A stretch of 35,158 nt of DNA from Phycisphaerae bacterium. GTDB taxonomy: Bacteria > Planctomycetota > Phycisphaerae > UBA1845 > UTPLA1. A model generated the notes under the pieces. That model saw nothing but the letters and a program-made list of their open reading frames with translations, searched no databases and was not told where the DNA came from. The position numbers and the translations under genes were made by a program. Positions 1,881 to 33,797 of the stretch are shown piece by piece. The stretch spans positions 1 through 35,158 of the forward strand of contig JAUVGW010000010.1 of NCBI GenBank assembly GCA_030593565.1, read 5' to 3'. Numbering within the stretch: the stretch's first letter is position 1; each line of letters opens with the position of its first letter.

Positions 1881-2010
1881 CGCTAACACTACAGCGCAAA
1901 GTCGTGCCAGCAGCGTCTCAAGAGCCCCCGACCTTGGTCGGGGGGTTGCCTTGCGGCATGTGGGAGCGTACCCCCCGAGCAAGCTCGGGGGCTCATAGGA
2001 GCAGTCGCCG
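1881..2010. repeat. Dispersed nested palindrome, family A copy 1 (core about 1920-1995)
   Basis: aagagcccccgaccttggtcggggggttgcc...gcatgtgggagcgtaccccccgagcaagctcgggggctc; two hairpins whose outer arms also pair; same layout as copies at 5481, 7829, 9869, 33798. Confidence 0.85.
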
Positions 2011-3223: not shown

Positions 3224-3373
3224 CTAGTGCTTTGTGACAGATCAATTGATGGGTGCCACTGGCGGCTTGTCCGCCAGTGCCGACACTGGCAGCTTACCTG
3301 CTCGCGTACACTGGCGGGCAAGCCGCCAGTGGCACCCTTGGAACCCCTCATTTGAGGTGTCATGGTGCACTAG
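3224..3373. mobile_element. MITE-like element (family B copy 1) with CTAG ends and nested palindrome
   Basis: Left CTAGTGCTTTGTGACA, right TGTCATGGTGCACTAG (imperfect TIR); interior GGGTGCCACTGGCGGCTTG...CAAGCCGCCAGTGGCACCC with inner hairpins CTGGCGG/CCGCCAG. Confidence 0.75.
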
Positions 3374-5322
3374 GGCCTTGAATCGGTGATGGCGGCGATT
3401 TCGTCCTCCACCTTCCGCCGTTTCTCGATGTCCATCTTCTTTCGTCTGCCGTCGGATTGACAGATGTCGCACGCGTTGTAGCCGTGTCCCTCGCACGCCA
3501 GACAAGGCCCCGGTAAAACACGTTTGCCTGTCTTCTTGCAGTCCCCGCAGGCGACAAAGCCCTTGCCACACCGACACCGGACCGTGCCTTTGCCGTCACA
3601 TTTGGAGCACGTTACGAGCTTGGTCTTGGGCACGGCTTCTCCGTTGCGACGGACGATCGTCGTCTCCTCGACCTTGCCGGTACCCTTGCACCTTCTGCAC
3701 TGGACGATTCCCGTGCCGTCGCAGGCTTCGTGCGGCACTCGCCCCGATCCCGTGCAAGTCGGACAAGGCCTGGACTCCGTCCGTTCGCCGGCACCGCCAC
3801 ATGCCGAGCATTCCAGCTTGCCGCGGCCTAGGCAAACGGCACAGCCTTGCTCCACGGTACGCAGCCGGATACCGATCTCCTTGCCGCACCTATCAAGGAT
3901 GGTCTCGAGCGATCGTGGATGCGCCGCCGTGAATTCCGCCAGTGCGCTCAATGCATGAACCGCGTCGGTGGTGTTCGCGAGGAATTCACGCCGGGCGTCT
4001 TGAGTCAGCGTGGCTAGGTTCTTCTTGCTCTTCCTCGACCTTTTCGGCGTCGGCCGGGGCAGGCTCTGATCGGCTATTCTGTCCATGGCGTCGATCCACG
4101 CCGCATTCCCGTAGCCATTCCGGTAGATGTTCACGGCGAGCTGTTGTGCACTGCGCCCAGCCAACGCGTGGACGGCCCAAACCGGGCCGGGAGCCTCGGG
4201 CTTGAGGTCTACGGCGACCTGGCTGACGCCCGGGTAGTTGGGCACGTCGATGTCAAGTTTTGTCGGGATGTAGCCCTCTGCCTCAATGAAGACCTCGATC
4301 AGGCCGGGAGGGAGTCCCGCGAGAGCCGTGCCGACGGGGGTTGGATCGTGGGCGAGCACTTTCACAAGCGCTGCAGCCGGCGTCCCCGTGATGAGGATGC
4401 GTCCGCGGACCTTGCCGCCAAGTTCCTTGTCCCAGTCTTCCAGGTCGTTGCCTTTGTGCGGCATCCCCCGCGCCTCAATGATCAGCACCCTGGCTTCCTC
4501 CCACTTCCCTTTCGCAGCGGCCTCGCGCGACCTGGCGAGCAGACGCCGCCCGGGTTCAAGCTCCTTCTCCTTCTCGAGCCGGCCGATGGCGCCTACCAGC
4601 CCGGGGACGCGCGGGTCCTTCGCACCGTAGGTGTTCAGCGCACGGACTTGGTCGAGGAGCTTCCGCGCAGCGTCAGGGGATCGCCTCTGGATTTCACCAT
4701 CAACTTCGTCCAGGAGGTGCGATCGGTGGGCTAGCGCAGCGGTCGTGGTACGGGACTCGAGTTGGAGCCTGAATTCATCGGATAGCGTAATCGGGGCGGG
4801 TTCGTTCAGCGCGGTTGACGCGCCGGCGAAGTCGTTTTTCGCGAGCAGACCCTCGACATTCGAGCGGGTCTGGCTGATGAAGGCTCCCTTGATCTCCTCG
4901 GTGAGCACGTCCCGGACGTCCGTCGGGAGTCCCTTCGGCAACGAGGCATTCAATACAAATACCGCCTCGCTGAGGTCTTGGTGGGCCACCAGCCGCTTAA
5001 CCTCGGCGGTGGTCTCGGTTGTCAGAGTAATGAGGCGAATCCGTTCCTTTTCGCCGGCCTCTGCCTGACGCTTGCTGGTCGCCCCTCGATGCCAATAGGC
5101 ATAGCCCATGTAACCGAAAACTGTTACCAGAACGATGGCCAGGCCGCAGACTGCGATGATGAACTTGCGGTGGACTTGCAGCCTCGCCTTCTCGTCTGAG
5201 TCCGCAACGTCGTAGCTTCCCTTGGCCTTGCTGGTGTTGAGCGAGTACTCGCTGCGCGCCTCAAGGGCTAGACGATCCAGGCGTTCGTCTTCCTCGGACA
5301 GATGGGGGCGTTTTGTGGGCAT
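3370..5322 (-). CDS. Membrane-anchored protein with PEGA-like segment and C-terminal DnaJ-type CxxCxGxG cysteine repeats, no J domain
   Basis: 650-aa ORF; single TM (FIIAVCGLAIVLVTVFGYMGYAYW); GRILITGTPAAALVKV...GLPPGLIEVFIEAEGYIPTKLDI resembles PEGA; C-terminus has about nine CxxC pairs (CAVC, CSAC, CPTC, CRRC, CSKC, CGDC, CLAC, CDIC...). Confidence 0.85.
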   Translation of the reverse strand: MPTKRPHLSEEDERLDRLALEARSEYSLNTSKAKGSYDVADSDEKARLQVHRKFIIAVCGLAIVLVTVFGYMGYAYWHRGATSKRQAEAGEKERIRLITLTTETTAEVKRLVAHQDLSEAVFVLNASLPKGLPTDVRDVLTEEIKGAFISQTRSNVEGLLAKNDFAGASTALNEPAPITLSDEFRLQLESRTTTAALAHRSHLLDEVDGEIQRRSPDAARKLLDQVRALNTYGAKDPRVPGLVGAIGRLEKEKELEPGRRLLARSREAAAKGKWEEARVLIIEARGMPHKGNDLEDWDKELGGKVRGRILITGTPAAALVKVLAHDPTPVGTALAGLPPGLIEVFIEAEGYIPTKLDIDVPNYPGVSQVAVDLKPEAPGPVWAVHALAGRSAQQLAVNIYRNGYGNAAWIDAMDRIADQSLPRPTPKRSRKSKKNLATLTQDARREFLANTTDAVHALSALAEFTAAHPRSLETILDRCGKEIGIRLRTVEQGCAVCLGRGKLECSACGGAGERTESRPCPTCTGSGRVPHEACDGTGIVQCRRCKGTGKVEETTIVRRNGEAVPKTKLVTCSKCDGKGTVRCRCGKGFVACGDCKKTGKRVLPGPCLACEGHGYNACDICQSDGRRKKMDIEKRRKVEDEIAAITDSRP

Positions 5323-5480
5323 GGTTGTGCCTCCGGCGGTGATATCAGAACGCCAAACCGATCACTGCAACGAGAGTCCCGGAAACAGAAACTTGAGTTT
5401 GGGCCGCGCTATTCCGTTTGTCAACACCTATCGGCGGGCGTTTCCTAGCATGACAGCGCCAAGTATGAGTCGGTTGAGCC

Positions 5481-5592
5481 CAAGAGCCCCCGATCCAGCG
5501 AGCCGGCTCGTCTCGAGCCGGTCTTCCTGTCGGGGGGTTGCCGCAGATACCTGGGAACGTACCCCCCGAACAAGCTCGGGGGCTCTTGGGTG
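5481..5592. repeat. Dispersed nested palindrome, family A copy 2
   Basis: caagagcccccgatccagcgagccggctcgtctcgagccggtcttcctgtcggggggttgcc...accccccgaacaagctcgggggctcttggg. Confidence 0.85.
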
Positions 5593-5725
5593 CTACCGCC
5601 GCCTATCCAGTGCTGACAACCCAGGAAGACATGTCATGGCTTGCGCGCCGTCGTGAGGACTCGCTACGGTTTGACGAGAAACGGTCCGCGCTCTTGGGAA
5701 CACTCAGTGCCGGGACAACCCGATC

Positions 5726-6328
5726 TCAGGCTCGCTTGCGTCGGGCGAGCGCGATCACGCCACCAACGATGAGCAAGACCGACGTGACCGGCTCAGGAAT
5801 GAATACCTCGCCGCCCACGTAATCGACAGTCGCGAATCCGCCGCCTTCCCCTGGATCCCTGACGAAACCTTCAGTGAGATCGTCCGGGCTGTCGTCGCTC
5901 AAGGTAAGCGGCACCGGCGTAGGCCACGCCTGGAGAGCCTGCAACTGGATCGTGGCGAGCAGGACCTCGCTTCCCCAGATGGCGATACCAGGTGGCGCGG
6001 AGACGATGGCTGCGAGTCCATCGCCATCAGGGGTGTCGGGAGCGGCATCCCACAACATCGTGTTGATGCTATAACCCACCTGTCCGATCTGGGGACTCGG
6101 GAAGATGAAGTCGAGCCCCCAGCCGATCACGGCATCGGACGCCGGGATGCTCGCCACGATGTCGACATCGAATAGCTCCCCGACTCCCACGGTCTGTGAG
6201 ACCGGCGAGAGGCTGACCACGATCGTATCCGCTGAGGCCGGTAACGCGACCAGGAGCCCCGTCAGGGCAGCGGTGCCGAGAATGACGTTGAGTTTCGTGA
6301 TACTCCATCCCCCTAGCGTGTGTGCCAT
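5726..6328 (-). CDS. PEP-CTERM sorting-domain protein, cohesin-like N-terminal region
   Basis: Signal peptide; LSPVSQTVGVGELFDVDIVASIP; C-terminal IPEPVTSVLLIVGGVIALARRKRA. Confidence 0.88.
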   Translation of the reverse strand: MAHTLGGWSITKLNVILGTAALTGLLVALPASADTIVVSLSPVSQTVGVGELFDVDIVASIPASDAVIGWGLDFIFPSPQIGQVGYSINTMLWDAAPDTPDGDGLAAIVSAPPGIAIWGSEVLLATIQLQALQAWPTPVPLTLSDDSPDDLTEGFVRDPGEGGGFATVDYVGGEVFIPEPVTSVLLIVGGVIALARRKRA

Positions 6329-6591
6329 GCTCTGATTCTACCCAATTGAACGGGCCAATTCAACGCGTGGGCACCCGCGTCAGGGATTCGATCGAGTATT
6401 CTCGGCCGGAACTGGCAGGAATGACCGTCAGGAATGGCTTCCTCCGGATTGCCCGCGAGCCTCGCCGCCCCGGCTGCGCCGGCCTACGCGGTAACGTCTG
6501 ACGTGACGATTCGACGATGTTCACGTATGATCGCCACAGCCGCCGAGCCGGCCTGATCGAAAAGCACGGACAGCCACACAGGGAGACAGCA

Positions 6592-6768
6592 ATGAAATGG
6601 CACTATGGGCGAAAATGGATACTCCTGGCCACCGTGACGATCGGCACCACGTTACAACTCGCGACTTGCCAGGAAGAACTCGCCCTTTTCGGCCTCCGAA
6701 CAGCCTTCTCCACCGTCACTTGGCCAATCAACACCATGATTCGTCAGTTTCTACTCACTTTGGGTTGA
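6592..6768 (+). CDS. Small secreted hypothetical protein
   Basis: MKWHYGRKWILLATVTIGTTLQLATCQEELALFGLRTAFSTVTWPINTMIRQFLLTLG; GGGAGA upstream of ATG 6592. Confidence 0.55.
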   Translation: MKWHYGRKWILLATVTIGTTLQLATCQEELALFGLRTAFSTVTWPINTMIRQFLLTLG

Positions 6769-6813
6769 TGTGACGGCGTCGGATTCCTCGTAGATCCGTG
6801 GGCCACAAAGGTC

Positions 6814-6984
6814 GTACGTGTTTAGCGTTCAGCCGGGATGGCATGGGTAGCGGAGCCGCGTTGAGCGGCGGAGCTTGCCCGTGGGCAAGGAACCTCGATG
6901 TGTTCACACGGGTAACGAGCGGGCCACCCCGCGGGATGGCCCGCTCGTTACCCAAGTCACCCTGTCTGAACGCTGAACACGTAC
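6814..6984. mobile_element. MITE-like element (family C) with 19-bp TIR and GTAC ends
   Basis: Left GTACGTGTTTAGCGTTCAG; right CTGAACGCTGAACACGTAC (18/19 complementary); interior hairpin GGGTAACGAGCGGGCCA...TGGCCCGCTCGTTACCC. Confidence 0.8.
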
Positions 6985-7007
6985 CGAATGTCATTCCGTG
7001 GGCCGGA

Positions 7008-7718
7008 TCAGTGTTGTTTCCCGTGCCGCTTCTCCCACACCTCCTCCGCCTCCGGACGACGCACATAAAACGGCTCCAACTCACGAGCCGGCGTAAAAAA
7101 ATCCTGCTCCGCAAGACGCCGACCGAGACGCATCACGTTCGACGCCCGCGGCCACCACATCGACTGATCCAGCACCACCGCGCCGGACGCCTCGACGGCC
7201 TCGCGATAGTATTCGATTCCCTCACCGACCACGGCCATCGGCTGCGGCTCCTCGGCCAACAACGCACCCGGCTCGATCATCCGTGGATCAGCCGTTCTCC
7301 GATAACACTCGCCGCCCCATTTATAGACGGCCGCGAAGACCTGTCGCCGTTTCGCATCAAGGATCACGACGAGACGCTCCGGCCGACTCGCCATGACGGC
7401 ACAATTCTCGGCAATCACATCCAACGTTGGGACGGCCACGGTTTTCGTCCCCGCCGCCAGCGCAAGATGCCGCGCGAAAGCAACCGCCACGCGAAGGCCC
7501 GTAAAGCTCCCAGGCCCGATCGATACGTGGCATTCGCCGACCTCGCTCGGTGTCCAGCCCTGCTCGCGACAAAGCCGGTCCACCGTGGGAATCAGTTCCC
7601 GAGCGTGTTCCCGGGTCGTCGTGAACGCACCCTCCACAACGATGCGCCCACCACACCCCAACGCCACGCTCCCGTGCGGACCGGACGTCTCGATCGCGAT
7701 AGCCTTTGCCTCTGTCAT
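7008..7718 (-). CDS. tsaB: tRNA threonylcarbamoyladenosine biosynthesis protein TsaB
   Basis: MTEAKAIAIETSGPHGSVALG...SIGPGSFTGLRVAVAFARHLALA typical of TsaB; start set to ATG 7718 rather than the long ORF start at 7955. Confidence 0.92.
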   Translation of the reverse strand: MTEAKAIAIETSGPHGSVALGCGGRIVVEGAFTTTREHARELIPTVDRLCREQGWTPSEVGECHVSIGPGSFTGLRVAVAFARHLALAAGTKTVAVPTLDVIAENCAVMASRPERLVVILDAKRRQVFAAVYKWGGECYRRTADPRMIEPGALLAEEPQPMAVVGEGIEYYREAVEASGAVVLDQSMWWPRASNVMRLGRRLAEQDFFTPARELEPFYVRRPEAEEVWEKRHGKQH

Positions 7719-7828
7719 TGCCCGTCGATCCTCGCATTGCCAGCGGTCGATCAGTAGGATACGATCGCGATGCTCGATGGTAAACCTGATGCTAACGGTA
7801 CAACGCAAGGTCGTGCTAGCAGCGTCTC

Positions 7829-7940
7829 GAAAGCCCCCAACCCAGCGAGCCGGCTCGTCTCGAGCCGGTCTTTCCGTTGGGTTGCCTTGCGGCATCTGGG
7901 AATGTACCCCCCGAGCAAGCTCGGGGGCTCTTGTGCCCAA
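7829..7940. repeat. Dispersed nested palindrome, family A copy 3
   Basis: cgaaagcccccaacccagcgagccggctcgtctcgagccggtctttccgttgggttgcc...taccccccgagcaagctcgggggctc; lies between divergent tsaB and STAS starts. Confidence 0.85.
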
Positions 7941-7992
7941 TCGCCCGTCCAGCAAGGTATTTCAGGACAAACGCTCAGATCGGAGTGAATCA

Positions 7993-8406
7993 ATGGCGGA
8001 ATCTCGATTGTTGATAGTGGAGTACAGCGGCGTCACGACCGTGACCTTCCCGGACAGCGCGATCCTGGAACCGACGGTGATCAGCCAGATCGCCAAGGAT
8101 CTCTACGCACTCGCCGACGAGAAGCAAATCCGCAAGCTCGTCCTCGACTTCTCGAAGGTGCGATTCCTCGCGTCGCACGCCCTGGGCATCCTCCTGACGC
8201 TCCGCAAGAAATCTAGGGACATCAAGGGAACCTTGGTGCTCTGCGGACTGAGACCGGACCTGATGAAGGTCTTCAAGATCACGAGCCTCGACAAGATATT
8301 CACGATTCTGCCTGATGATGCCGCAGCCCTGGCCTCGTTCGGCGTGACCATGAGACAACAAACGGAAGCCAAGCGAAATCCTCGCCGCGGGTCGCTCGAA
8401 ACGTAG
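7993..8406 (+). CDS. STAS-domain protein (anti-sigma factor antagonist-like)
   Basis: MAESRLLIVEYSGVTTVTFPDSAILEP...LVLDFSKVRFLASHALGILLTLRKK...GLRPDLMKVFKITSLDKIF. Confidence 0.85.
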   Translation: MAESRLLIVEYSGVTTVTFPDSAILEPTVISQIAKDLYALADEKQIRKLVLDFSKVRFLASHALGILLTLRKKSRDIKGTLVLCGLRPDLMKVFKITSLDKIFTILPDDAAALASFGVTMRQQTEAKRNPRRGSLET

Positions 8407-8424
8407 CGGACCGGAATCGCCGCC

Positions 8425-8790
8425 ATGCCGTCATCACATTTCAACGTCGAAGACTACGCCGGCGTCATCCTCGTCACCTTCACCGACAGCGCGCTGCTTG
8501 AAACCGCCATCATCGACCAGATAGGTGACGCCCTTTACGATCTCGTGGAAACGCAGCAGCACCAGAAACTCATCCTGGATTTCTCGCACGTAAAATCGCT
8601 TTCATCACACACGCTCGGCATCCTCTTGACGCTCCGCCACCAAACGCACGCGATCAAGGGAACGGTCCTCCTTTGCGGACTGCGACCGGAGTTGATGAAG
8701 GTCTTCAAGATCACGAACCTCGACGAGATGTTCCAGTTCCACGCCGACGACACCGAAGCCCTCGCCGCCTTCGGCATCAAGGTCAAATGA
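8425..8790 (+). CDS. STAS-domain protein, tandem paralogue of the preceding gene
   Basis: VTFTDSALLETAIIDQIGDALYDL...LILDFSHVKSLSSHTLGILLTLRHQ...GLRPELMKVFKITNLDEMF aligns along its length with the upstream ORF. Confidence 0.87.
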   Translation: MPSSHFNVEDYAGVILVTFTDSALLETAIIDQIGDALYDLVETQQHQKLILDFSHVKSLSSHTLGILLTLRHQTHAIKGTVLLCGLRPELMKVFKITNLDEMFQFHADDTEALAAFGIKVK

Positions 8791-8796
8791 AACTCA

Positions 8797-8934
8797 GCCG
8801 CGGAGCGATAACGAGATTGAGCCGCGCAGCGGGATTAAGCCGCGCAGCGGCAACGGGATTAAGCCGCGCAGCGGCGACGGGATTGAGCCGCGCAGCGGCA
8901 ACGGGATTGAGCCGCGCAGCGGCGACGGAATAAA
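8797..8934. repeat. 24-bp tandem repeat array (6 units, one shortened to 18 bp)
   Basis: Unit gccgcgcagcggcaacgggattaa; starts 7 bp after the STAS stop codon; followed by palindrome gcccagggcgaagcgcagcgagccctggg. Confidence 0.92.
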
Positions 8935-9206
8935 GCCCAGGGCGAAGCGCAGCGAGCCCTGGGAAGCCGGATCACGAGATCGGCAGCCCCCAACGGGGGC
9001 GGCGGAAAGACTTGGCACTATGACGTTCAACGAACCACGTTGAACCGGCTTCTCGTGAAAAACACCGCGCCGCATCGTTCCGGATCGCCCCGTTCTACCG
9101 GCTCTATCGCTTGCCTTGCACTTGTATCCGTCTGTGACTAGCATCTGCCCCGCTGCATAGGGATTGACGAACCTCGCGAACTTGCCAAAGTGAAAAGGAT
9201 GTCGAA

Positions 9207-9707
9207 ATGATCCGAAGTCTCTTGCTGATTGGTTGTTGCCTTGCTTTGTTGGGAACATCTTGCCCGTCCGGATCGACCCTGACCTGCGCAAACGATCTCG
9301 ACGGTTCCGAGTTCGGCTTCACCATGACCGTCCCGAGCCAGTTCGATTGCACGGGCGTGTTCCCCAATCCCTTCAGCTTGGCACAAGTCCGCTACCTCCA
9401 GTCCTCAACCGACATCGCGATCTCGGTCCAGGTCAACCGAGCCTCGACAGAAGACGACCAAGCCAGCGGGGATGGCATCACGACCGAGGAACTCGCCGAT
9501 CTCGCCACCGCCAACGGCATCACCTTCGAGCGCCAGAAGGTCACCATCGATGCGCTCACCGGCTACGTGGGTGGCGCGACCATGCAAAGCGGAAACCTGT
9601 TGTTCATCACCGTCATCGGCTCAACGGACCAGGACGCCTCGATGCAGACCACCTTGGACGCAATTCTCGAAACCATCCAGTGGGTCCAGCCAACCGAAGG
9701 CGCCTAG
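9207..9707 (+). CDS. Putative lipoprotein/secreted protein (166 aa)
   Basis: MIRSLLLIGCCLALLGTSCPSG (lipobox-like LLGTSC); stop TAG 9705-9707 lies in the CTAG end of the adjacent repeat. Confidence 0.75.
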   Translation: MIRSLLLIGCCLALLGTSCPSGSTLTCANDLDGSEFGFTMTVPSQFDCTGVFPNPFSLAQVRYLQSSTDIAISVQVNRASTEDDQASGDGITTEELADLATANGITFERQKVTIDALTGYVGGATMQSGNLLFITVIGSTDQDASMQTTLDAILETIQWVQPTEGA

Positions 9708-9836
9708 TGCTTTGTCATGCCTACATCATCGGGTGGTACGGGCGTCCCGCCCGTGCGAAATCGGGTTGCCATGGTCTTGCACGGGCGAGACGCCCGTACT
9801 ACCCAACCCACATATTTAGGCGTGACAAAGCACTAG
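9704..9836. mobile_element. MITE-like element (family B copy 2) with 18-bp TIR
   Basis: Left CTAGTGCTTTGTCATGCC, right GGCGTGACAAAGCACTAG (17/18 complementary); interior GGTGGTACGGGCGTCCCGCCCGTGC...GCACGGGCGAGACGCCCGTACTACC. Confidence 0.88.
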
Positions 9837-9868
9837 CGGTTCAGCGCAGAGTCGCGCGAGCAGCCGCT

Positions 9869-9985
9869 CAAGAGCCCCCGACCCAGCGAGCCGGCTCGTC
9901 TCGAGCCGGTCTTCCTGTCCGGGGGTTACCTTACGGCATGTGGGAGCGTACCCCCCGAGCAAGCTCGGGGGCTCTTGGGCACAGT
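9869..9985. repeat. Dispersed nested palindrome, family A copy 4
   Basis: tcaagagcccccgacccagcgagccggctcgtctcgagccggtcttcctgtccgggggtta...taccccccgagcaagctcgggggctcttggg. Confidence 0.87.
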
Positions 9986-10005
9986 CGCCACGAGGATACT
10001 TCGTT

Positions 10006-10656
10006 ATGTCCGAACAATCATCGCCCGTCAGCGTCGAGCACTTCGAATACATCGCCGCCCACACCGCGACCGATGACGACTTCTTGAAGTCCCTTCGACA
10101 AGGCGCCCTGGCCGCGGGCATCCCCGCCATCGCCATCTCGCCCGAACAGGCGAGCTTCTTCCAGATTCTCCTGAAGCTCTCCAACGCCAAACAGGTCGTC
10201 GAGGTCGGCACCCTGGCGGGCTATTCCGCCATCGCCATGGCCCGCGCGCTCCCGCCAAAGGGCCGCGTCCGCACGATCGAGATCGATGAAAAACACGCCG
10301 CTTTCGCCGAAGCCCAGGTCGCCAAGTCCGACGTCGCCGGCCGCGTCGAGGTCTACCGCGGCACAGGCAAGGACGTGCTGCCCACCTTCACCGCGAACTC
10401 CGCCGACGCCGCCTTCCTCGACGCCGACAAATCCAGCTACGCCCTCTACCTCCGCGAATGCCTCCGCATCGTCCGCCCCGGCGGCCTCATCATCGTCGAC
10501 AACGCCTTCGCCTTCGGCGAACTGTTCGCCGACGCCCCCCAGGACCCCGAAACACCCGCCATCCGGGCCTTCAACGAAATCATGGCTAACACCCCCGAAC
10601 TCCACGGCATCATCATCCCCCTCGGCGACGGCTGCTGGGTCGCCGTAAAACACTGA
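10006..10656 (+). CDS. Class I SAM-dependent O-methyltransferase (O-MT family)
   Basis: VVEVGTLAGYSAIAMARALPPKGRVRTIEIDEKHAAFAEAQV...DAAFLDADKSSYALYLRECLRIVRPGGLIIVDNAFAFGEL. Confidence 0.9.
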   Translation: MSEQSSPVSVEHFEYIAAHTATDDDFLKSLRQGALAAGIPAIAISPEQASFFQILLKLSNAKQVVEVGTLAGYSAIAMARALPPKGRVRTIEIDEKHAAFAEAQVAKSDVAGRVEVYRGTGKDVLPTFTANSADAAFLDADKSSYALYLRECLRIVRPGGLIIVDNAFAFGELFADAPQDPETPAIRAFNEIMANTPELHGIIIPLGDGCWVAVKH

Positions 10657-10684
10657 GAAAGCCCGCCAAAGACACTGACGCACC

Positions 10685-10794
10685 GCTCGTGCGAGATTCC
10701 CATCTCGCACGCCTTCTGGCAGGATTCCCATCCTGCGGCCCAACCGGTAGGTTCGCTTTGCCGCACAGGTGCGAGAAAGAATTCTCGCACGAGC
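10685..10794. repeat. Hairpin cluster with outer inverted arms
   Basis: GTGCGAGAT-TCCC-ATCTCGCAC, GCAGGAT-TCCC-ATCCTGC, GTGCGAGAA-AGAA-TTCTCGCAC; outer arms GCTCGTGCGAGA/TCTCGCACGAGC. Confidence 0.85.
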
Positions 10795-10817
10795 ATCAGT
10801 CCCGTAGAATGTCGCCC

Positions 10818-11489
10818 ATGGCGGACCAACTACAAAAAAAACCGATCGAAACCGCCGCCAGTCGCCGACTGGCAAGCCGATTCCTCGCCGAACGGGCCGC
10901 ACGCGTCGCCGTGTTGGCCGACTGGATCGCAGGATTCGGTGAATTCGAAGATGCCGCCTGCGACCGCCGCGCCGTTCGGGCCGCCGCATGGTTTCAGGAT
11001 GCCTGGTGCGTCGGTGATGCGCGTGTGGAAGGCCCGAGCGCACCGGTCGTGCTCGCCGTTCAGCCGACCGACTTCCAGCGAGAGCGCGCCGCCGACATCG
11101 CCGCCGAGTCGCTCGCTGACATCGTAGACGCCGGCACCCTCACCACCGCCGCCCGGGCTATCCGTGAAGCCGGCGCACACGAAACGAACGTGCCCGAGGC
11201 CGTCATCCTCCGCGAGGCGACGAACCTCGACTCGATCGGCCCGTTGTGGCTGTGGGGCCAAGTCGCCCGCTGCGCAGCGGAGGATCGGCCCGTCGCCTCC
11301 GTTGTGGCCGTGTGGGAGCGGCACGTCGAATACGACTATTGGGCCAAGCGAATCAGCGAGACCCTGCGTTTCAAGCGTTCGCGCGAACTCGCCCACCACC
11401 GCTGCCGCACGATGGACGCCTACTTCCTTGCACTACGTGACCAGCTAACCGGAGCTGACAGACACGTGGCGCCGGAGGCGCACGACTGA
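10818..11489 (+). CDS. Hypothetical protein (223 aa), possibly metal-dependent hydrolase-like
   Basis: MADQLQKKPIETAASRRLASRFLAERAARVAVLADWIAGFGEFEDAACDRRAVRAAAWFQDAW...; stop overlaps the next ATG at 11489. Confidence 0.75.
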   Translation: MADQLQKKPIETAASRRLASRFLAERAARVAVLADWIAGFGEFEDAACDRRAVRAAAWFQDAWCVGDARVEGPSAPVVLAVQPTDFQRERAADIAAESLADIVDAGTLTTAARAIREAGAHETNVPEAVILREATNLDSIGPLWLWGQVARCAAEDRPVASVVAVWERHVEYDYWAKRISETLRFKRSRELAHHRCRTMDAYFLALRDQLTGADRHVAPEAHD

Positions 11490-12745
11490 TGGACGTCTAT
11501 CGCGCAAAGTGGTTGCTGCCCGTCACTGCGGACCCGATCGAAAACGGAGCCCTCGCCGTGGAAGGTGACCGCATCGTCGGCGTCGGCACGCCCGCCGATT
11601 TCCCCGGTGCGTCCCCCCGCGACCTGGGGGACAGCATCCTCCTACCCGGTTTCGTCAATGCCCACACACATCTCGAAATGACCTGCTACCACGGCCGCGT
11701 CGCCCCGGCCCCGCTGTGGGACTGGTTCGAGCAAGTCATGGCGTTGCGTCTGAAACCCGGTGCGGTCGAAAACGAACGACGCGCCGTCCACGACGGAGCC
11801 GCGCTGTCCGTCGCCGCAGGCGTCACCTGCATCGGCGACATCTCCCGAACAGGTCTCCACGTCCGCGCGCTGGCAACGTCGCCGATTCGCAAGGTCTGTT
11901 TTCTCGAGTTGATCAGCGGCGCCCATCTGCCGCCGAACGACATCGCCTCGCTCACGGCCATGGCGGACGAAATGGCCACGCTCGCCGAGCCCGATCGCCT
12001 GACCATCGGCATCTCCCCACACACGCTGTACACGGTCACCTGGGACGACCTCGTCGGTTCCGCCCGCCTGACGGCCGACCGCAACCTCCCATTGACCATA
12101 CACGTCCTGGAAACGACCGAGGAAGCCGCATGGCTCCCCACCGGCAAAGGCCGACTCCAGACGCTGCTCGAAGGCTACAAGCTGCCGACCGTATCAGCCT
12201 GTCGCCACGGCCGCGCCGTCGAACAGCTCCAACAGGCCGGCCTGTTGGACCAGCGCCCGCTCCTCGCACACGTCAACTACATCGGGGACGACGAACTCCG
12301 CGATCTCGCCGCCTCGCAGGCCTTGGTCGCATGGTGTCCTCGGTCGCACCGATTTTTCGGCCACGCGGCCCATCGCTGGCGAGACATGCTCCGCGCCGGC
12401 GTCAACGTCTGTCTCGCAACGGACAGCCTCGCCAGCAACGACACATTGTCCATTCTGGACGAGATGCGCCACGTCAGACGGACCACTCCCGATATCGATC
12501 CGGACATCATTCTCGAAATGGGCACGATTCGCGCAGCCGTCGCCCTCCGGCTCGAAAACCGCATCGGTAGCCTGGAAACCGGCAAGCTTGCCGATTTCGT
12601 GACCATTCCATGGAACCAGGGCGGCAGCGAAACCGCTACAGTGAACCTCCTCGATGGCGAACGGTGCGTCGCCGAAACGTGGATCGGCGGTGTCAGCATG
12701 CCCAGAATGCCCCACCGAAGGAGCGTCGCCCCCCGCCGAATGTAG
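11489..12745 (+). CDS. Amidohydrolase family protein (MTA/SAH deaminase or guanine-deaminase-like)
   Basis: LLPGFVNAHTHLEMTCYHG; ISPHTLYTVT; LLAHVNYIGDDEL; CPRSHRFFGH; LATDSLASNDTLSILDEMR; LGSLETGKLADF-like end. Confidence 0.9.
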   Translation: MDVYRAKWLLPVTADPIENGALAVEGDRIVGVGTPADFPGASPRDLGDSILLPGFVNAHTHLEMTCYHGRVAPAPLWDWFEQVMALRLKPGAVENERRAVHDGAALSVAAGVTCIGDISRTGLHVRALATSPIRKVCFLELISGAHLPPNDIASLTAMADEMATLAEPDRLTIGISPHTLYTVTWDDLVGSARLTADRNLPLTIHVLETTEEAAWLPTGKGRLQTLLEGYKLPTVSACRHGRAVEQLQQAGLLDQRPLLAHVNYIGDDELRDLAASQALVAWCPRSHRFFGHAAHRWRDMLRAGVNVCLATDSLASNDTLSILDEMRHVRRTTPDIDPDIILEMGTIRAAVALRLENRIGSLETGKLADFVTIPWNQGGSETATVNLLDGERCVAETWIGGVSMPRMPHRRSVAPRRM

Positions 12746-12822
12746 CGTCGGCCCCCCGTGGCCGACGTGAAGTAGTGAGGGGTACCTCCGCCCATACGTC
12801 GGCCACAGGGGGCCGACGCTAC
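12742..12822. repeat. REPIN-like nested palindrome (two inverted GTAG-headed hairpins)
   Basis: GTAGCGTCGGCCCCCCGTGGCCGACGT ... ACGTCGGCCACAGGGGGCCGACGCTAC, 26/27 complementary; each arm has its own CGTCGGCC/GGCCGACG hairpin. Confidence 0.88.
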
Positions 12823-13030
12823 TTCCTCGGCCGCGAACCCACCCCAGGCACGCCGGGGGATGCAGTTTTGTCTTGCTTGACTCCGTAGAATTGGTACAAT
12901 ACGTTTCTTGGCCAGGCGCCCCGGGCTACACGTGGTTCCCCCCAGCTGCGTTCCGGGCCCTGGCCTTTGTTTATTCCCGGGCTCGGCCATCGAGGTCGCA
13001 GCCCCTCGAACTCGCAGGAGCAACAGACCC

Positions 13031-13423
13031 ATGGCCGACGAAGAACGCAAGATTCAGGTCGACGACGACTGGAAATCCGAAGCGGACGCCGAAAAAGAAC
13101 AGCTTTCCCGAAAAATCGAAGACGAACAGGCCCAATCCTTGCCGGATGCGACCTTCTCAAGTCTGATCCAGCTCATCGCCATGCAGGCCATGGTCGGGCT
13201 CGGCGGCATGGCGGGCCCGGGCGGCCAGCAAATCCCACCCAACTTCGACTTGGCAAAGCATCACGTCGACATCCTCGACGTTCTCACCGTCAAGACGAAG
13301 GGCAACCTGGATCCCGAGGAGCAAAAACTCCTCGACACCACGCTGCACCAGCTTCGCATGGCATACGTTGAAGCGGTCCAAGGCGGCGGCATGTCCGCAC
13401 CGCCCCCCGGCCGGCCGTCGTAA
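13031..13423 (+). CDS. DUF1844 domain protein
   Basis: FSSLIQLIAMQAMVGLGGM...NFDLAKHHVDILDVLTVKTKGNLDPEEQKLLDTTLHQLRMAYVE. Confidence 0.88.
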   Translation: MADEERKIQVDDDWKSEADAEKEQLSRKIEDEQAQSLPDATFSSLIQLIAMQAMVGLGGMAGPGGQQIPPNFDLAKHHVDILDVLTVKTKGNLDPEEQKLLDTTLHQLRMAYVEAVQGGGMSAPPPGRPS

Positions 13424-13455
13424 CGCCAAGTCGCCGCAGATCATTAGCCCCATAG

Positions 13456-13477
13456 CCCCCCGCGGAAGCGGGGGTTT
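13456..13477. terminator. Possible rho-independent terminator between convergent genes
   Basis: CCCCCGC-GGAA-GCGGGGG followed by TTT between DUF1844 and dacB-like stops. Confidence 0.5.
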
Positions 13478-13497
13478 GCTCGCCGCTCCCGCGCCGC

Positions 13498-15018
13498 CTA
13501 CTCCTTCGTCGACGGCCCCACATCCGGCCAGCGAACCAGCACCCGACAGGCCTCGTCCTGAAGTTTCTTCATCGCGGCCGTATTCTTCGCTTTGTTGTAA
13601 AAGATCGAGAACGCCAGCCATCGGTTCGACTTCGTGTGGACGTAGCCCGACAACGTCCGCACCCCGTTGACATAACCTGTCTTGGCAAAAATACGGCCCT
13701 TCGTCTCCGCGGAGCGAAGCCGCTTTGCCATCGTGCCGTCAACGCCCGCACAGGCCAACGCATCCCGAAACGTCTCGAAATCGCCTTTGCCCGAACGGAA
13801 CAAATGCCTCAGCACGACCACGCTCGCCCCCGGACTGAGCCGATTCGTACGAGACAGACCGCTGCCCTCATCGATAACGAACTGATCCGGCGGTACCCCC
13901 ACTTTCGACAGAAACGCCGCAACGGCCTGCGAGCCGTTGCGCCACGATCCTACGCCGGACCGCTCGTGCCCGAGCAGCTTGATCAACGCCTCGGCCATCA
14001 TGCCCAGGCTCTCCTTGCCGGCGCGCGACAAGGCATCCGATAGCGGCGAGTGATGCACCGCCACGATATGGCAATCCACCGGGATCGTGCCGTCGTCGTG
14101 CCGCACACGCTCACGCACCACCTCGCCCGCGACGCGCACGCCGGCCTCCGCCAGCGCCGCCTTCAGAACATGCCCGAAATACATGCCGGGATTACGCACC
14201 GACACAGGACCCACAACGCCCTTCTTCGAAACGACGCCGCGAACGAAAATCGTATCGCCACCCTTCTTGCGACTCACCGACACCGTGGCTTTCTTCCCGG
14301 TCGTTGTCTTGTTTTGAAGTTGCAGCGCCCCGTTCACCGGAACGAGCGACACGGCGGCAGGCTTGCCGGCGGCCGTCGGACGAACCTCCACGCTCGTACA
14401 ATTGCCGTTGAAGTTCAACCCGCCCACCGGCGCCTCGTACCATTTCTGATATTGATTCGCCGGCCAATGTGGGTGCGTGAACTGCTGATCGAAGATCGTA
14501 TCATCGATCACGAGATTGCCCGGCACCCCGCGCACACCCGCCGCCTTCAGCTTCTCCGCCCACTCCACGAACACCGCCGTGATCGTCTCGCCGCGCCGCC
14601 GCGCAAGCCGCTCGTCGCCAATCGTCGGATCACCGCCGCCTATCACGATCAAGTCTTTGCCGCGAATCGCCAGGACAGTCGCAAACCGATAATCTCGCCC
14701 CAATTGATCGATCGCCGCCGCCATCACGACAAGCTTCATGTTGCTCGCCGGGATCATCGCCCGATGCCCGTCACGATCATACAGAACGCGCCCGCCGGGC
14801 AATTCGACAACCCGCGCGCCGAGTCTGGCGCCCGCTTCCTTGTGGTTCGTCAGGATTCGATCGAGCCGGGATCGCAGGCGTGATGCCGCATTGCCGGGAT
14901 CGCCGATGGCCTGCGCAGCGACAAATACCGGCAATAGCAACAAGACAATCAGGCCGACAACGCGGCGGAAAACGCCGCGCCCGGCAAAAGTCCCAATATG
15001 TCGTGGATGCGCCTCCAT
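13498..15018 (-). CDS. dacB: D-alanyl-D-alanine carboxypeptidase/endopeptidase, PBP4 (S13) family
   Basis: MIPASNMKLVVMAAAIDQLG (SxxK), EGSGLSRTNRLSP, FAKTGYVNGVRTLSGYV (KTG); start chosen at ATG 15018 before a signal peptide. Confidence 0.88.
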   Translation of the reverse strand: MEAHPRHIGTFAGRGVFRRVVGLIVLLLLPVFVAAQAIGDPGNAASRLRSRLDRILTNHKEAGARLGARVVELPGGRVLYDRDGHRAMIPASNMKLVVMAAAIDQLGRDYRFATVLAIRGKDLIVIGGGDPTIGDERLARRRGETITAVFVEWAEKLKAAGVRGVPGNLVIDDTIFDQQFTHPHWPANQYQKWYEAPVGGLNFNGNCTSVEVRPTAAGKPAAVSLVPVNGALQLQNKTTTGKKATVSVSRKKGGDTIFVRGVVSKKGVVGPVSVRNPGMYFGHVLKAALAEAGVRVAGEVVRERVRHDDGTIPVDCHIVAVHHSPLSDALSRAGKESLGMMAEALIKLLGHERSGVGSWRNGSQAVAAFLSKVGVPPDQFVIDEGSGLSRTNRLSPGASVVVLRHLFRSGKGDFETFRDALACAGVDGTMAKRLRSAETKGRIFAKTGYVNGVRTLSGYVHTKSNRWLAFSIFYNKAKNTAAMKKLQDEACRVLVRWPDVGPSTKE

Positions 15019-15155
15019 GCGCCAGCATCTTACAGGCCCTTGGGAGCCATGCAAGCTTTTGACTCGCCCTCGAATCGCACATAAACTCGTATGAGAGCGC
15101 TCGTGCCTTGATAGTCGCGGATTCCTCTCAGGCTGGGGTCGATTACGCATGGCTT

Positions 15156-15540
15156 GTGCGAGAATCCTTTCTCGCACTCGCTTCCGCGAGAACCTCCTCC
15201 CACAGCCTGCCAAAACGGATGGGACGCAGGATAGGAATCCTGCCAGCGAGCCGGGCGGTCCTCCGCCCGGTCTACCAACAGCGAGCCGGGCGGTCCTCCG
15301 CCCGGTCTACCGACAGCGAGCCGGGCGGTCCTCCGCCCGGTCTACCGACAGCGAGCCGGGCGGTCCTCCGCCCGGTCTACCAACAGCGAGCCGGGCGGTC
15401 CTCCGCCCGGTCTACCGACTGGGAGTGGGGACGAGATAGGAATCTCGTCCCAGCCAGCAGAAAATTGTGGCACCGGCAACTGTGGCACCGGTGACTGTGC
15501 ACCGGCAACTGTGGCACCGGCGTCCCGCCGGTGGTCCTTC
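15156..15540. repeat. Composite hairpin array in a divergent intergenic region
   Basis: GTGCGAGAA-TCCT-TTCTCGCAC (15156-15177), GCAGGAT-AGGA-ATCCTGC (15226-15243), five 35-bp units (15245-15419), GGGACGAGAT-AGGA-ATCTCGTCCC (15428-15451), then tgtggcaccggcaac half-sites ending in CACCGGCGTCCCGCCGGTG. Confidence 0.92.
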
Positions 15541-15650
15541 ACCGACCGAAGGCCAGTGCCGCAGGATGTCTCGCGAAGGCCCGAATCAAAAGCCATGCCA
15601 CGTGAGGCAAGACCGCCGGATGCGACGAACCTCCTCACCGGCGAATCAGG

Positions 15651-16673
15651 GTGACGCGAGCAATGGGGCGGAAGCAGAACGTGTCCTCACACCTGACAGT
15701 ATCGAAGCGCGTCACATTGCTCGTCAGTTCGACGAATGATGATTGGGTCCTCGACTGCGCCGAGCGACTGGCCGAGGCCGGTGCCTCTGTGGACCTCGTA
15801 CCGAACGTCTACGCCGCCATGGCAAGGCTCACGTTGGACACCGACATCCGCCGCGTCCTCCTTGATATCCGGACGATGGACAAAGGCGAGGCGGCGTTTC
15901 TTCGCGTGGCCGCAAGGTACTACCCCTCCATCGACGTCATCATCCCGGCCTTCCCCGGCGCCGCCGAGCGAGCCGCCGCCCTTGGCATCGGCCTGCCGCC
16001 CACAAGTGTCGACGCCGTCACGGCCGCCGCGGAACTCGAAGACGCCCTCGCCGCGCCGACGACCGACGCTTCCACCGAGGTCACTGCTGCTGCTGCCGGC
16101 GACGATGCCACCGACCACGTCACCGACGGTGGCGTCACCGAGGCCGACGTCGAAGCCCCCCCCGGGGAACTCGCGGCTTCCTTGCCACCGCAGACGCCCA
16201 CAAGCCAGGCCGACCCGGTTCAGCAGGAACCGCCGCTCGACCCTAATGACGAGCTTCCACTTGACGCCGATAGCGACTCGGTGGCAGCTCCTACCGGAGC
16301 ATTGTCCACGGACGGCGGCCCGGAATCCGCGCCGGCCGGACCGTCACTCCACGATGCGGTCCGGGCGCGAATGGCGGGCGACGATCCAAGAACCAGTCGG
16401 CGTCCACCCCAACGCGTGGCCCCACAACATCGCGACACAAACGACAACCTGATCGATCCCCCGGCGAGCCGGGCCAGCGAGCCGGGCCGTCCCCCAGCGA
16501 GCCGGGCCGTCCCCGGCCCGGTCCCGCTTCCCAAGCCGGACCACCCCTCCGAGCCGCTCCCCCCCGCCAAACCCTCCCTGTCCCAAGACGAAGTAAACGC
16601 GCTACTCGGCGACGATGAATCGGTCGAACCGGATCTGCCGTCACCCGACGGCGAACAGGGGGGCGCATCATGA
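15651..16673 (+). CDS. Receiver-like N-terminal domain with long acidic/Pro-rich tail carrying an LSQDEVNALLGD motif
   Basis: VTLLVSSTNDDWVLDCAERLAEAGASVDLVPNVYAAMARL...RVLLDIRTMDKGEAAFLRVAARYYPSIDVIIPAFPGAAERAAALGI; alternative ATG at 15663; stop overlaps the next CDS. Confidence 0.75.
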   Translation: MTRAMGRKQNVSSHLTVSKRVTLLVSSTNDDWVLDCAERLAEAGASVDLVPNVYAAMARLTLDTDIRRVLLDIRTMDKGEAAFLRVAARYYPSIDVIIPAFPGAAERAAALGIGLPPTSVDAVTAAAELEDALAAPTTDASTEVTAAAAGDDATDHVTDGGVTEADVEAPPGELAASLPPQTPTSQADPVQQEPPLDPNDELPLDADSDSVAAPTGALSTDGGPESAPAGPSLHDAVRARMAGDDPRTSRRPPQRVAPQHRDTNDNLIDPPASRASEPGRPPASRAVPGPVPLPKPDHPSEPLPPAKPSLSQDEVNALLGDDESVEPDLPSPDGEQGGAS

Positions 16674-17983
16674 CTCAGTGGCCCGCTGATGCTACGGCAC
16701 GCCTCCTCGTGGTCACCGACCTCGACCGCCTCGGCCCGATCGTACGAAGTTGCTTTGCCCCGAACCCGATTGAGGGCGTCCGCACCTGTCTCGCCGGCAT
16801 CGCTGAAGTGGGACAAAAACCGACACGCGCTGTGCTCGTCGGACGCGAACCCGGCTGCCACAACCACGAAGCAGCCGTCGCGGCCATCAAGGCCGTCGCC
16901 GGAGACACCCCCGTCATCTTCTGCTGCGATCCCGCCTACGAAGACTTGGCCAAGGACGTCGTACGCCACGGGGCCGACGACTATCTGATCTTCCCTCCCG
17001 AGCCTGCTGAACTCGAACAGGCCCTCGGCATCCCATCGAAGGTGACACGCCAACGATGGATCGAAACGCCCGTCGTCGCACCGGCGCCCTCGGCGGAGGA
17101 ACTCGCCCACCTCGCGGATGCGCTGCCGCGACTCGTTGCCGGCGACGCCGGCACACTTGACGCCCTCGCCGCCCTGATCTGTGCCGCCCTCAACGCCGAG
17201 TCCGCCTCGGTCGTCATCCAGGGCACGGCAGGCCATGCCGGGCCGCCCGGCCCACTGGCCCTCGATGCCGTCCTTATTGAGCCCATCACCGACAACGAAC
17301 AACGAATCGGACAAATTCGCGTCGGCAGACGAAACGCCGGAGCATTCGCGCACGAGGACTCGGTCAAGCTCCGCCACTACGGCGTCCTCTTCGGCCGGAT
17401 GCTCGCCGGCGCGCGACGCGCGCACGAATGGCAACGCCTCGCGCTGACCGACGATTTGACCGGCCTCGCCAACCGCCGCAACCTCGTGGAATTCCTCGAG
17501 GACAAACTCGCCCTCGCGGCCAAAGCGCGATCCACCGTCACCGTTCTCTACTTCGATATCGACGACTTCAAACGCTACAACGACGCCTACGGCCACGATG
17601 CCGGCGACGAGATTCTTTGCGACATCGGCATCCTGTTCGCCCAGTGCAGCCGCGACACCGACCTGGTGGCACGTTATGGAGGCGACGAGTTCGTCGTCGT
17701 TTTCTGGGATCCCGAGGGCCCGCGAACGCTCGGCTCCCGCCATCCGCAAGGCGTCATCGATATCGTCCACCGATTTCGCGCGGCCCTCAAGAAGCACACC
17801 TTCACGCGACTCGGCCCCGAAGCCTCGGGACATCTCACCATCAGCGGCGGCTTGGCCCATTATCCCTGGGACGCCCACACAGGCATCGAACTCATCGAAG
17901 CCGCCGACCGCGCCCTCCTACAGGCCAAAGACGCCGGCAAGAACCGATTCTGGATAATCGGCGGCGGCGACGTGGGCGCGTAA
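16670..17983 (+). CDS. Diguanylate cyclase with degenerate receiver-like and GAF-like N-terminal regions
   Basis: DDLTGLANRRNLVEFL; LYFDIDDFKRYNDAYGHDAGDEIL; RDTDLVARYGGDEFVVVF (GGDEF plus RxxD I-site); GGLAHYPWDAHTGIELIEAADRALLQAKDAGKNRF. Confidence 0.93.
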   Translation: MTQWPADATARLLVVTDLDRLGPIVRSCFAPNPIEGVRTCLAGIAEVGQKPTRAVLVGREPGCHNHEAAVAAIKAVAGDTPVIFCCDPAYEDLAKDVVRHGADDYLIFPPEPAELEQALGIPSKVTRQRWIETPVVAPAPSAEELAHLADALPRLVAGDAGTLDALAALICAALNAESASVVIQGTAGHAGPPGPLALDAVLIEPITDNEQRIGQIRVGRRNAGAFAHEDSVKLRHYGVLFGRMLAGARRAHEWQRLALTDDLTGLANRRNLVEFLEDKLALAAKARSTVTVLYFDIDDFKRYNDAYGHDAGDEILCDIGILFAQCSRDTDLVARYGGDEFVVVFWDPEGPRTLGSRHPQGVIDIVHRFRAALKKHTFTRLGPEASGHLTISGGLAHYPWDAHTGIELIEAADRALLQAKDAGKNRFWIIGGGDVGA

Positions 17984-18077
17984 CGACGTACCTCAGCCGT
18001 TCGACGCGCAAAAACCGGGCCGCCACGTTTGTGACGGCCCGTGGTGATTGCCAGTCATGTCGCAAAGCAAACGCTGA

Positions 18078-18210
18078 CTAGAGCATTTCACGTTTGTCTG
18101 TAGCGGCCGACGCCCCTGTCGGCCGTGGATTGTTCGATGATGCTGCGTCCGACACGGGGGTCGGCCGCTACAGTCCATGGGTGCAGCCGACTTTTGCCAC
18201 GGGCTGCTAG
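18078..18210. repeat. CTAG-bounded region with REPIN-like nested palindrome
   Basis: CTGTAGCGGCCGAC (18098-18111) pairs with GTCGGCCGCTACAG (18160-18173); inner hairpin CGGCCGAC-GCCCCT-GTCGGCCG; CTAG at 18078 and 18207. Confidence 0.75.
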
Positions 18211-21360: not shown

Positions 21361-22128
21361 AAAAGGGGGGCAGGCTTACTTTTTCTTTGGATGCTCGCCC
21401 CGCTTCGGTCGCCAAGGAGGGCGAAGACTGGATTGGAGCTTCAAGCGAGCCGCGGTGTGACGTTGCCAGGAGACCTCGCCGTATGGAGCGCCTCGGGCGA
21501 GGCTGAGCCTTACCGCATCAAGCTCCGCTTCGGTTTCCGGTCGATTTACGAATGCCGTCCAAGTCCGCAGCGGAGATACCGGCCAATCCTTCACCGCGAC
21601 CAGCCAGGGGGATTTTACATCTTTGCGACGCCGGCGGACCAGGCTCGACCACAGCCAGTCCTCGGCACGCGCGACCAAGCCTGCCCGCAGGGCGTTTCGC
21701 TCGACGTAACGACAGACAGTCAGGAAATGGCGGTCCTCCTGAATGGGGAAGCTCTTGAAACGCCCCTGATAGACCGGGCCCGTGCCACGCGTATCGCGGT
21801 GGGCGTGCCAACGACGCATGTGTGTGGTGGTCAGCCATTGCATGTAGCGGGACGTCTGGCCGTCGCCTGTCGGCCAGAGCACGAGGTGCCAGTGGTTAGG
21901 CATGAGGCAGTAGCTGATGACGCGCATAGGCGATTTGGCGTGTGCCTCGTCGAGGACCTTCTCGAAGGCAACGTAATCACCGGACTTCTCAAACAGCGGC
22001 AGGCGACTCACACGCCGGTTGAGTACGTGATACACAATCCCGCCGCGGTCGATTCGCAGACGTCTGGCCATCGGGACATGTTACCCCGACCCCAATAACG
22101 TGTCATTAAGTAAGCCTGACCCTCTTTC
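21361..22128. mobile_element. RAYT-containing element bounded by inverted GGGGNCAGGCTTACTT repeats
   Basis: Left AAAAGGGGGGCAGGCTTACTT, right AAGTAAGCCTGACCCTCTTT flank the transposase ORF. Confidence 0.85.
21376..22071 (-). CDS. REP-associated tyrosine transposase (RAYT, Y1/IS200-like HUH family)
   Basis: MARRLRIDRGGIVYHVLNRRVSRLPLFEKSGDYVAFEKVLDEA...ISYCLMPNHWHLVLWPTGDG...GPVYQGRFKSFPIQEDRHFLTVCRYVERNALRAGLVARAEDWLWSS. Confidence 0.95.
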   Translation of the reverse strand: MARRLRIDRGGIVYHVLNRRVSRLPLFEKSGDYVAFEKVLDEAHAKSPMRVISYCLMPNHWHLVLWPTGDGQTSRYMQWLTTTHMRRWHAHRDTRGTGPVYQGRFKSFPIQEDRHFLTVCRYVERNALRAGLVARAEDWLWSSLVRRRRKDVKSPWLVAVKDWPVSPLRTWTAFVNRPETEAELDAVRLSLARGAPYGEVSWQRHTAARLKLQSSLRPPWRPKRGEHPKKK

Positions 22129-26351: not shown

Positions 26352-26434
26352 CCCCGGCCCCCCCGATTCGGCGGTGGCGCGGACACACGAACGTCACGCA
26401 CGTGCGCCCAGAAGCCCTGGGCGTCAGAAAGGGG

Positions 26435-26921: not shown

Positions 26922-26928
26922 GGGGGGC

Positions 26929-33699: not shown

Positions 33700-33797
33700 T
33701 GGTACTCAACCCACTCGCGCTTGACAAAGCAACGCGGCCCGGTCGCCACATGCGGGGTGCACGTCACGATTGTAGATAGTTTCAGCCCCCACGGAAT

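Follow-up and report, generated by a model that had tools for sequence, protein, structure and literature searches.

REP and REPIN families in a Planctomycetota genome: constant feet and loops, varying stems, and about a dozen RAYT-like loci

Introduction

What are the doubled palindromes that punctuate a 35,158-nt stretch of DNA from a Phycisphaerae bacterium, and how can one genome host so many different versions of them? This stretch (GenBank assembly GCA_030593565.1, contig JAUVGW010000010.1; the window, our contig C79) belongs to a 5.15-Mb, 461-contig, 87%-complete Planctomycetota metagenome-assembled genome. Its palindromes follow the layout W-loop-W'-spacer-W-loop'-W', with a stem word W that changes from locus to locus. 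They recall REPINs, also known as bacterial interspersed mosaic elements (BIMEs), in which two inverted repetitive extragenic palindromes (REPs) form a longer hairpin, and which occur in high copy and are tied to a REP-associated tyrosine transposase (RAYT) (PMC3116915, Bertels and Rainey 2011). The original prediction, made from the window alone, proposed many REP stem classes in one genome, more than the single RAYT in view would explain. Our analysis makes it very probable that the window palindromes are indeed REP and REPIN elements. They would represent eight or more families in this stretch, and the genome would have no fewer than a dozen.

Results

All five loci named in the original prediction are present in the window, as are the five family A copies (at about 1919, 5481, 7832, 9869 and 33797), and all derive from dispersed families:

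12742..12822: REPIN of class C2, GTAG-CGTCGGCC-CCCCGT-GGCCGACG plus an inverted copy ending GGCCGACG-CTAC; feet outward, spacer 29 nt
18098..18173: REPIN of class C1, GTAG-CGGCCGAC hairpin plus inverted partner
9705..9835: 131-bp element of class C3b, a GT[AG]G-TACGGGCG-TCY doublet between 13-bp terminal inverted repeats (TIRs) TAGTGCTTTGTCA
3224..3373: class C4 doublet, GGGTGCC-ACTGGCGG-CTTG..., inside weak CTAGTGC-type ends
10685..10794: degenerate doublet of the TGCGAGA word, GTGGG/AGGA foot and loop type, with a further, different hairpin GGCAGGAT between the arms
1919..1997: family A doublet (class C10, CAAGAG-CCCCCGA-CTTG); the same repeat follows a RAYT on contig C146
5481..5588: family A doublet around a GAGCCGGCTCG hairpin
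7832..7933: family A doublet around a GAGCCGGCTCG hairpin
9869..9977: family A doublet around a GAGCCGGCTCG hairpin
33797..33905: family A doublet, inverted orientation

Within these loci, the CACTGGCGG doublet spans 3251-3337, the ACGGGCG doublet 9731-9804 and the GTGCGAGA doublet 10689-10794. Two of them are more than the plain doublets that had been proposed: the doublet at 9704-9836 exists but sits inside the constant 131-bp element, and the arms at 10685-10794 are there but enclose the extra hairpin. The arms of the 12742-12822 REPIN are 96% complementary, and the open reading frame (ORF) 11489-12745 takes its TAG stop (12743-12745) from the GTAG foot of this REPIN; in the same way, ORF 9207-9707 ends on a TAG (9705-9707) provided by the 131-bp element.

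Rates were computed on a 1.55-Mb sample, 30% of the genome, consisting of the window and 1.51 Mb from other contigs. Short blastn matches in this sample numbered 111 for the 3224 locus, 54 for 9704, 21 for 10685, 128 for 12742 and 251 for 18098. With a stem of 8 or more and a loop of 3-9, 1098 perfect hairpins were counted, whereas an order-3 Markov copy gave 258. Five or more copies were reached by 31 stem 8-mers, and by none in the Markov copy. The stem words are thus multi-copy rather than single-copy, and the presence of many of them in one genome, as the original prediction had it, is borne out.

The GTAG feet read at 12742, at 18100 and on the minus strands of 9704-9836 and 15245-15419 are all in place, and the foot is enriched as expected of REPs: it precedes 34% of the hairpins that are clustered, compared to 4.2% of those in single copy and 2.3% of those in the Markov copy. 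Conversely, a perfect hairpin follows 2.2% of GT[AG]G sites, compared to 0.6% for pooled control tetramers (six pairs, 0.25-0.9%). The fraction of units with a GTAG or GTGG foot is 0.86-1.0 in C1, C2, C3, GATGGGCA, GGTGCGTC, GACGAGAT and others, while it is lower in TGCGAGAA (0.69) and, by adjacency count, in CCGGGCGG (0.40). Not every locus is a GTAG or GTGG REP, however. Several are, but family A is flanked by CAAGAG, the 3224-3373 locus has the foot GTGCC, and further families carry ATAG or GAG; families A, C4, C5 and C6, which have these motifs in place of GTAG/GTGG, are REP-like repeats, not GTAG REPs.

Across all classes, the feet point outward in 201 of 236 close pairs (85%). Class C1, with 485 exact units genome-wide, has 200 units in the sample, 181 of them paired, with outward feet in 85 of 91 pairs and a spacer of 20-21 nt. 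For C2 (75 units) the feet are outward in 18 of 20 pairs and the spacer is 28-31, mostly 29 nt, and for C4 (93 units) they are outward in all 41 pairs, with a spacer of mostly 22-25, about 23 nt. The remaining spacers are 4 nt in C3, 26 in C3b, 101-102 in C5, 17 in C8 and 26-27 in C10, whereas C6, C7 and C9 units occur singly. Pair orientation and the near-constant spacers of seven classes (all of the above but C3) are those of REPINs.

When the 31 frequent stem words were sorted by foot and loop, they collapsed into fewer types. GTAG with a CCCCGT-like hexaloop accommodates the stems CGGCCGAC (93 perfect copies), CGTCGGCC (40) and CGTCCGAC (37), with foot and loop constant; GTGG with a TC[CT] loop accommodates CACCGGCG (69), CACAGGCG (8), CACCGCCG (6) and CACGGGCG (3), as well as TACGGGCG. 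Smaller types are GTGG with an AGGA loop (GGACGAGAT, GTGCGAGAA) and GTAG with a TCT loop (GGCGGGC, GTCGGGC). Words of one type differ from each other by one or two compensated pairs. A covariation score on an alignment of selected perfect hairpins (A1) serves as illustration only; a comparison in which the right arm was left free is a fairer test of compensation, and here most copies in both large types were still perfect, the mismatched ones lying, for the most part, a single step away from such a word. The stem is conserved as a pairing, not as a sequence, and the identity of a REP likely lies in its foot and loop rather than its stem. A special relation of C1 and C2 as arm-swapped forms of one stem, which we had considered, is needless, as shared foot and loop and compensated pairs link both via CGTCCGAC.

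To find transposases, the genome was searched with the profiles PF01797 (Y1_Tnp) and REP_Tyr_transpos, whose cut-offs are 23 bits and 80 bits. About 12 RAYT-like loci emerged, on contigs C377, C210, C146 (two), C438, C63, C9, C79 (the window), C381, C17 and C247, with a weak one on C71. The single RAYT of the original prediction holds for the window only. HuH and YxxxN motifs are present in all the RAYTs compared, own and from relatives, except that a simple search for motifs detected neither in our C17 and no Y in C146a. Of the 12 loci, 10 have on both sides an inverted 12-mer that occurs four or more times in the sample, compared to 222 of 20,000 random windows (1.1%), and the bracketing repeat is essentially distinct for each of the 10, as in REPtrons. 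Inspection of the flanking sequences pairs the RAYT on C377 with GTAG-GGTGCGTC, the one on C210 with an adjoining GTAG-GTCGGGC and the one on C17 with CCGGGTCG/CCGGGCGG; the second C146 locus goes with the family A repeat, C247 with GGCTTGCCGTTTGGCGG, and the C63 and window RAYTs have related GGGTCAGGCT(T)ACTT repeats. As putative members of the RAYT/TnpAREP class, these proteins would cleave and move their own REPs. One of the C146 loci is a pseudogene of NF047646 type (L126:8625-9077) with one TGA, which has kept its GTAG-GATGGGCA hairpins on both sides. Other genomes of the same order, labelled G001 and so on, yielded up to 20 Y1 matches (G019), part of which may be IS200, so that high numbers of RAYT-like loci appear usual in this order.

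The window itself holds one RAYT and a remnant of it:

21376..22071, strand -: RAYT/TIRYT gene; Y1_Tnp 43.1 bits (cut-off 23), REP_Tyr_transpos 67.5, below the cut-off of 80; inverted GGGTCAGGCTTACTT flanks
26923..27194: copy of the RAYT element at 21361-22121 with an internal deletion, both ends retained; families D8 93%, D10 83%; inverted repeat I15

This gene belongs with the TIRYT elements, the GGGTCAGGCTTACTT-like inverted repeat on both of its sides being unrelated to GTAG REPs. Beside the deleted copy, window positions 26423-27194 include a partial duplicate of a thioredoxin-like gene region (29590-30077), both lying among AAAGGGGGTCAGGCTTACTT ends; the duplicate may be a gene fragment carried by the RAYT element.

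The RAYT on contig C438 has an unusual location. One open frame of 1385 aa (L125:8056-12213) matches both ileS, encoding isoleucyl-tRNA synthetase (IleRS), at 835 bits (cut-off 621), and REP_Tyr_transpos at 86 (cut-off 80); the RAYT is uninterrupted and in frame, with no stop within the IleRS gene, at a position corresponding to residues 213-219 of the IleRS chain 8c8v. Our own genome included, 25 genomes contain 35 relatives of this RAYT that score at least 100 bits. Each of these lies in an open frame no shorter than 481 aa (median 894), compared to mostly about 150-300 aa for other RAYT frames in the same searches. Insertions occur at IleRS site 1 in G029, G078, G044 and G019, at IleRS site 2 in G050, G003 and G041, and in PurH in G008, G035 and G019, which were read, and G032, found by search; in these four genomes, the insertion divides PurH around profile position 264-276. 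The carrier frames are unbroken and the catalytic motifs intact. In our genome and the seven IleRS-case relatives, the interrupted ileS reaches the cut-off in an unbroken frame, and no second ileS above the cut-off was found in any of them, the next-best match in our own (C247) starting like valyl-tRNA synthetase; in G001 and G032, ileS is uninterrupted. Assembly error is unlikely, because the same architecture recurs in eight separate genomes for IleRS and in four for PurH.

The 11 embedded RAYTs examined, C438 and 10 from relatives, all have HuH and Y motifs and form one group, with a support of 90/97 that is not fully significant. The three insertion sites require three changes on the RAYT tree; a single site-2 clade is weakly rejected (p 0.036). 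Members of the same RAYT clade also lie in frames of 1131-1263 aa, unlike IleRS or PurH sizes (G050:C79, G003:C107, G068:C339, G019:C1:699183), and a third host gene is likely.

Beside these 11 loci, most hairpins combine a GTGG foot with a TC[CT] loop, and their stems vary among genomes: TACGGGCG in G078, GACGGGCG in G019, and, at the PurH RAYTs, CACCGGCG and CACAGGCG at opposite flanks in G035, CACCGGTT with CACAGGTT in G008, and CACCGGTT with CACGGGTT in G019. Two of these words, TACGGGCG and CACCGGCG, also occur in the window (9731-9804 and 15511-15533). The hairpin in G003 has a TGC loop instead, and no perfect GTGG/TCY hairpin was found beside the embedded RAYT of G029, G050 or G041 at the threshold used. 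The C438 RAYT is flanked by GGGGAGCATCGGCGTCCCGCCGGTACG, a hairpin with one mismatch; it may drive the C3 words of its own genome. In G029 (L281), a long tandem run of REPs precedes the IleRS-embedded RAYT and is translated as GSIGVPPV repeats.

These flanks bear on the strongest alternative, that each stem word is a class of its own with its own, partly lost, transposase. Every bracketed RAYT of our genome does have its own repeat, and several abundant words lack a RAYT here, as loss would predict. We nevertheless hold this strict pairing to be unlikely: the words within a foot and loop type differ by only one or two compensated pairs, single PurH RAYTs in G035, G008 and G019 lie next to two words each, and related RAYTs elsewhere keep GTGG and TC[CT] while the stem changes between TACGGGCG, GACGGGCG, CACCGGCG, CACAGGCG, CACCGGTT and CACGGGTT. 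What survives of the proposed one-to-one pairing is the essentially distinct repeat at 10 of 12 loci; stem words as independent classes do not.

The 131-bp element at 9705-9835 could suggest instead that the hairpins are passengers of miniature inverted-repeat transposable elements moved by DDE transposases, since it has 13-bp TIRs, a near-constant length (131-133 bp) and about a dozen copies in the sample. However, such TIRs enclose 11 of 13 C3b doublets but none or one in C1, C2 and C4, and the flanks of the listed copies show no constant target duplication, making this origin quite improbable. TAGTGC-type TIRs common to several classes were hinted at by a loose 7-mer test, but longer words and shuffled-word controls upheld them for C3b only. 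Finally, although the window copies are mostly intergenic, at gene 3' ends and between convergent genes, an origin as ordinary intrinsic or bidirectional transcription terminators is refuted by RAYT bracketing and the fixed-spacer inverted doublets. It is also at odds with the conservation of the feet, the presence of the same words in hundreds of places and the copies inside open frames, and we give it next to no credence; terminator use may be a secondary role.

Further repeats in the window are:

15152..15181, strand -: single REP GTGGG-TGCGAGAA-AGGA
15245..15419, strand -: five tandem 35-bp copies, GGTAGA-CCGGGCGG-AGGA-CCGCCCGG-CTCGCTG; the superfamily also flanks the RAYT on contig C17
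15420..15465: REP GTGGG-GACGAGAT-AGGA; foot, loop and tail as in the TGCGAGAA REP, stem different
15511..15533, strand +: single REP GTGG-CACCGGCG-TCY, class C3
16481..16523, strand +: CCGGGCCG-type REP within ORF 15651-16673, which remains open
8938..8968, strand +: AAAGCCCAGGGCGAAGCGCAGCGAGCCCTGGG repeat, also bracketing the Y1 gene on contig C381
33992..34010, strand +: GGCTTGCCGTTTGGCGGAT repeat, also near the RAYT-like locus on contig C247

In addition, an element of 171 bp, matched 27 times in the sample, occupies positions 6814-6984, with inverted ends GTACGTGTTTAGCGTTCAG and GGGTGGCATGGGT-type repeats, and positions 34905-35045 hold 28-bp tandem repeats CGGGGTGGCATGGGTTAACGAAGCCGCC that belong to a dispersed family.

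Discussion

The explanation that we favour with considerable confidence is that of REP/REPIN families served by many RAYTs through recognition of foot and loop. REPs and REPINs would be non-autonomous single-strand hairpin transposons copied by RAYTs, each of which would recognise a loop together with a foot, either GTAG or GTGG, and would require a perfectly paired stem, but no particular stem sequence. Owing to this tolerance, stems could drift through compensated changes and give rise to many words per RAYT lineage, while the remaining words would be orphans whose RAYTs have been lost. Hairpins of the GTGG/TC[CT] type would be assigned to the RAYT clade that is embedded in IleRS and PurH and flanked by translated REP copies.

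Several points weigh against this explanation. Transposition itself was not observed, and the families without GTAG/GTGG feet may follow another rule. Among the brackets, those of C71 and C9 are weak, resting on 12-mers with only five copies, and the C247 and window RAYTs fall below the bracket threshold, their repeats having been paired by eye. For C1, C2, C4 and the GTGGG/AGGA type, no RAYT was found in this 87%-complete assembly. Support comes from relatives, where a 187-aa RAYT frame of G032 is bracketed by inverted GTAGCGGCCGACCCCCGAGTCGG, which are C1 REPs, and a RAYT of G041, 66% related to it, sits between C1 units; across 61 genomes, however, RAYT presence follows C1 abundance only loosely, a C1-clade RAYT being present in 5 of 10 genomes with at least six C1 units and in 5 of 51 others (Fisher p 0.007, uncorrected for relatedness and with post hoc cut-offs).

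For the embedded RAYTs, we propose that a RAYT clade, together with flanking translated REPs, has settled in frame in variable loops of essential enzymes, at two sites of IleRS and one of PurH, and probably in other genes as well, where dependence of the host on the carrier would bar silencing by a stop or frameshift. This non-splicing, intein-like persistence, in which the clade would also drive the dispersed GTGG/TC[CT] REPs, is a proposal to which we assign even chances. In-frame lodging in indispensable genes is a possible answer to the question of how transposases persist without horizontal movement. No RAYT insertion in an essential enzyme was described in the open literature that we searched, most subscription journals lying outside that search.

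Like REPINs and BIMEs (PMC3116915), the elements described here are inverted REP pairs, dispersed in high copy and linked to RAYTs; unlike them, they comprise many classes within one genome, of which several have near-constant, class-specific spacers and some lack GTAG/GTGG. With the GTAG REP families of Di Nocera et al. 2013 (PMC3733652), they share the GTAG foot, the coexistence of several families in a genome, repeat-specific REPtrons, REPs that supply TAG stops, REPs in genes and occurrence in Planctomycetes; the portions of that survey on which we draw describe REPs inside genes but not, as here, a RAYT within another gene. The window RAYT, flanked by inverted GGGTCAGGCTTACTT and not by a GTAG REP, resembles the TIRYT elements of the same survey and differs from them in its internally deleted copy 4.8 kb away. 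Pseudomonad and stenotrophomonad REPs (PMC3686654, Nunvar et al. 2013) likewise include many classes, orphan REPs and an 'orthoswitch' of words beside orthologous RAYTs. However, old and new words here keep a common foot and loop across genera, and the about 12 RAYT-like loci are about three times the in-genome maximum in the literature that we found, the four RAYTs of fluorescent pseudomonads and stenotrophomonads.

HuH and Y motifs, the GTAG/GTGG foot and tolerant, perfectly paired stems agree with the TnpAREP subclasses (PMC6006769) and the rules of group 3 (PMC8266576). For cleavage, group 3 TnpAREP strictly depends on the GTAG foot and on a loop base and is impaired by a mismatch, whereas swaps of stem letters matter little (PMC8266576); the constancy of foot and loop over drifting stems in genomes agrees with this biochemistry. 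Cross-genus genomic evidence for REP identity in foot and loop, with the stem free, thus joins an earlier basis in purified proteins. In that TnpAREP work, unexpectedly long proteins were set aside as fusions or errors of annotation. In our data, open frames of this kind are found repeatedly, at defined sites and in different genera, and RAYT-enzyme fusions may have been discarded among those presumed errors.

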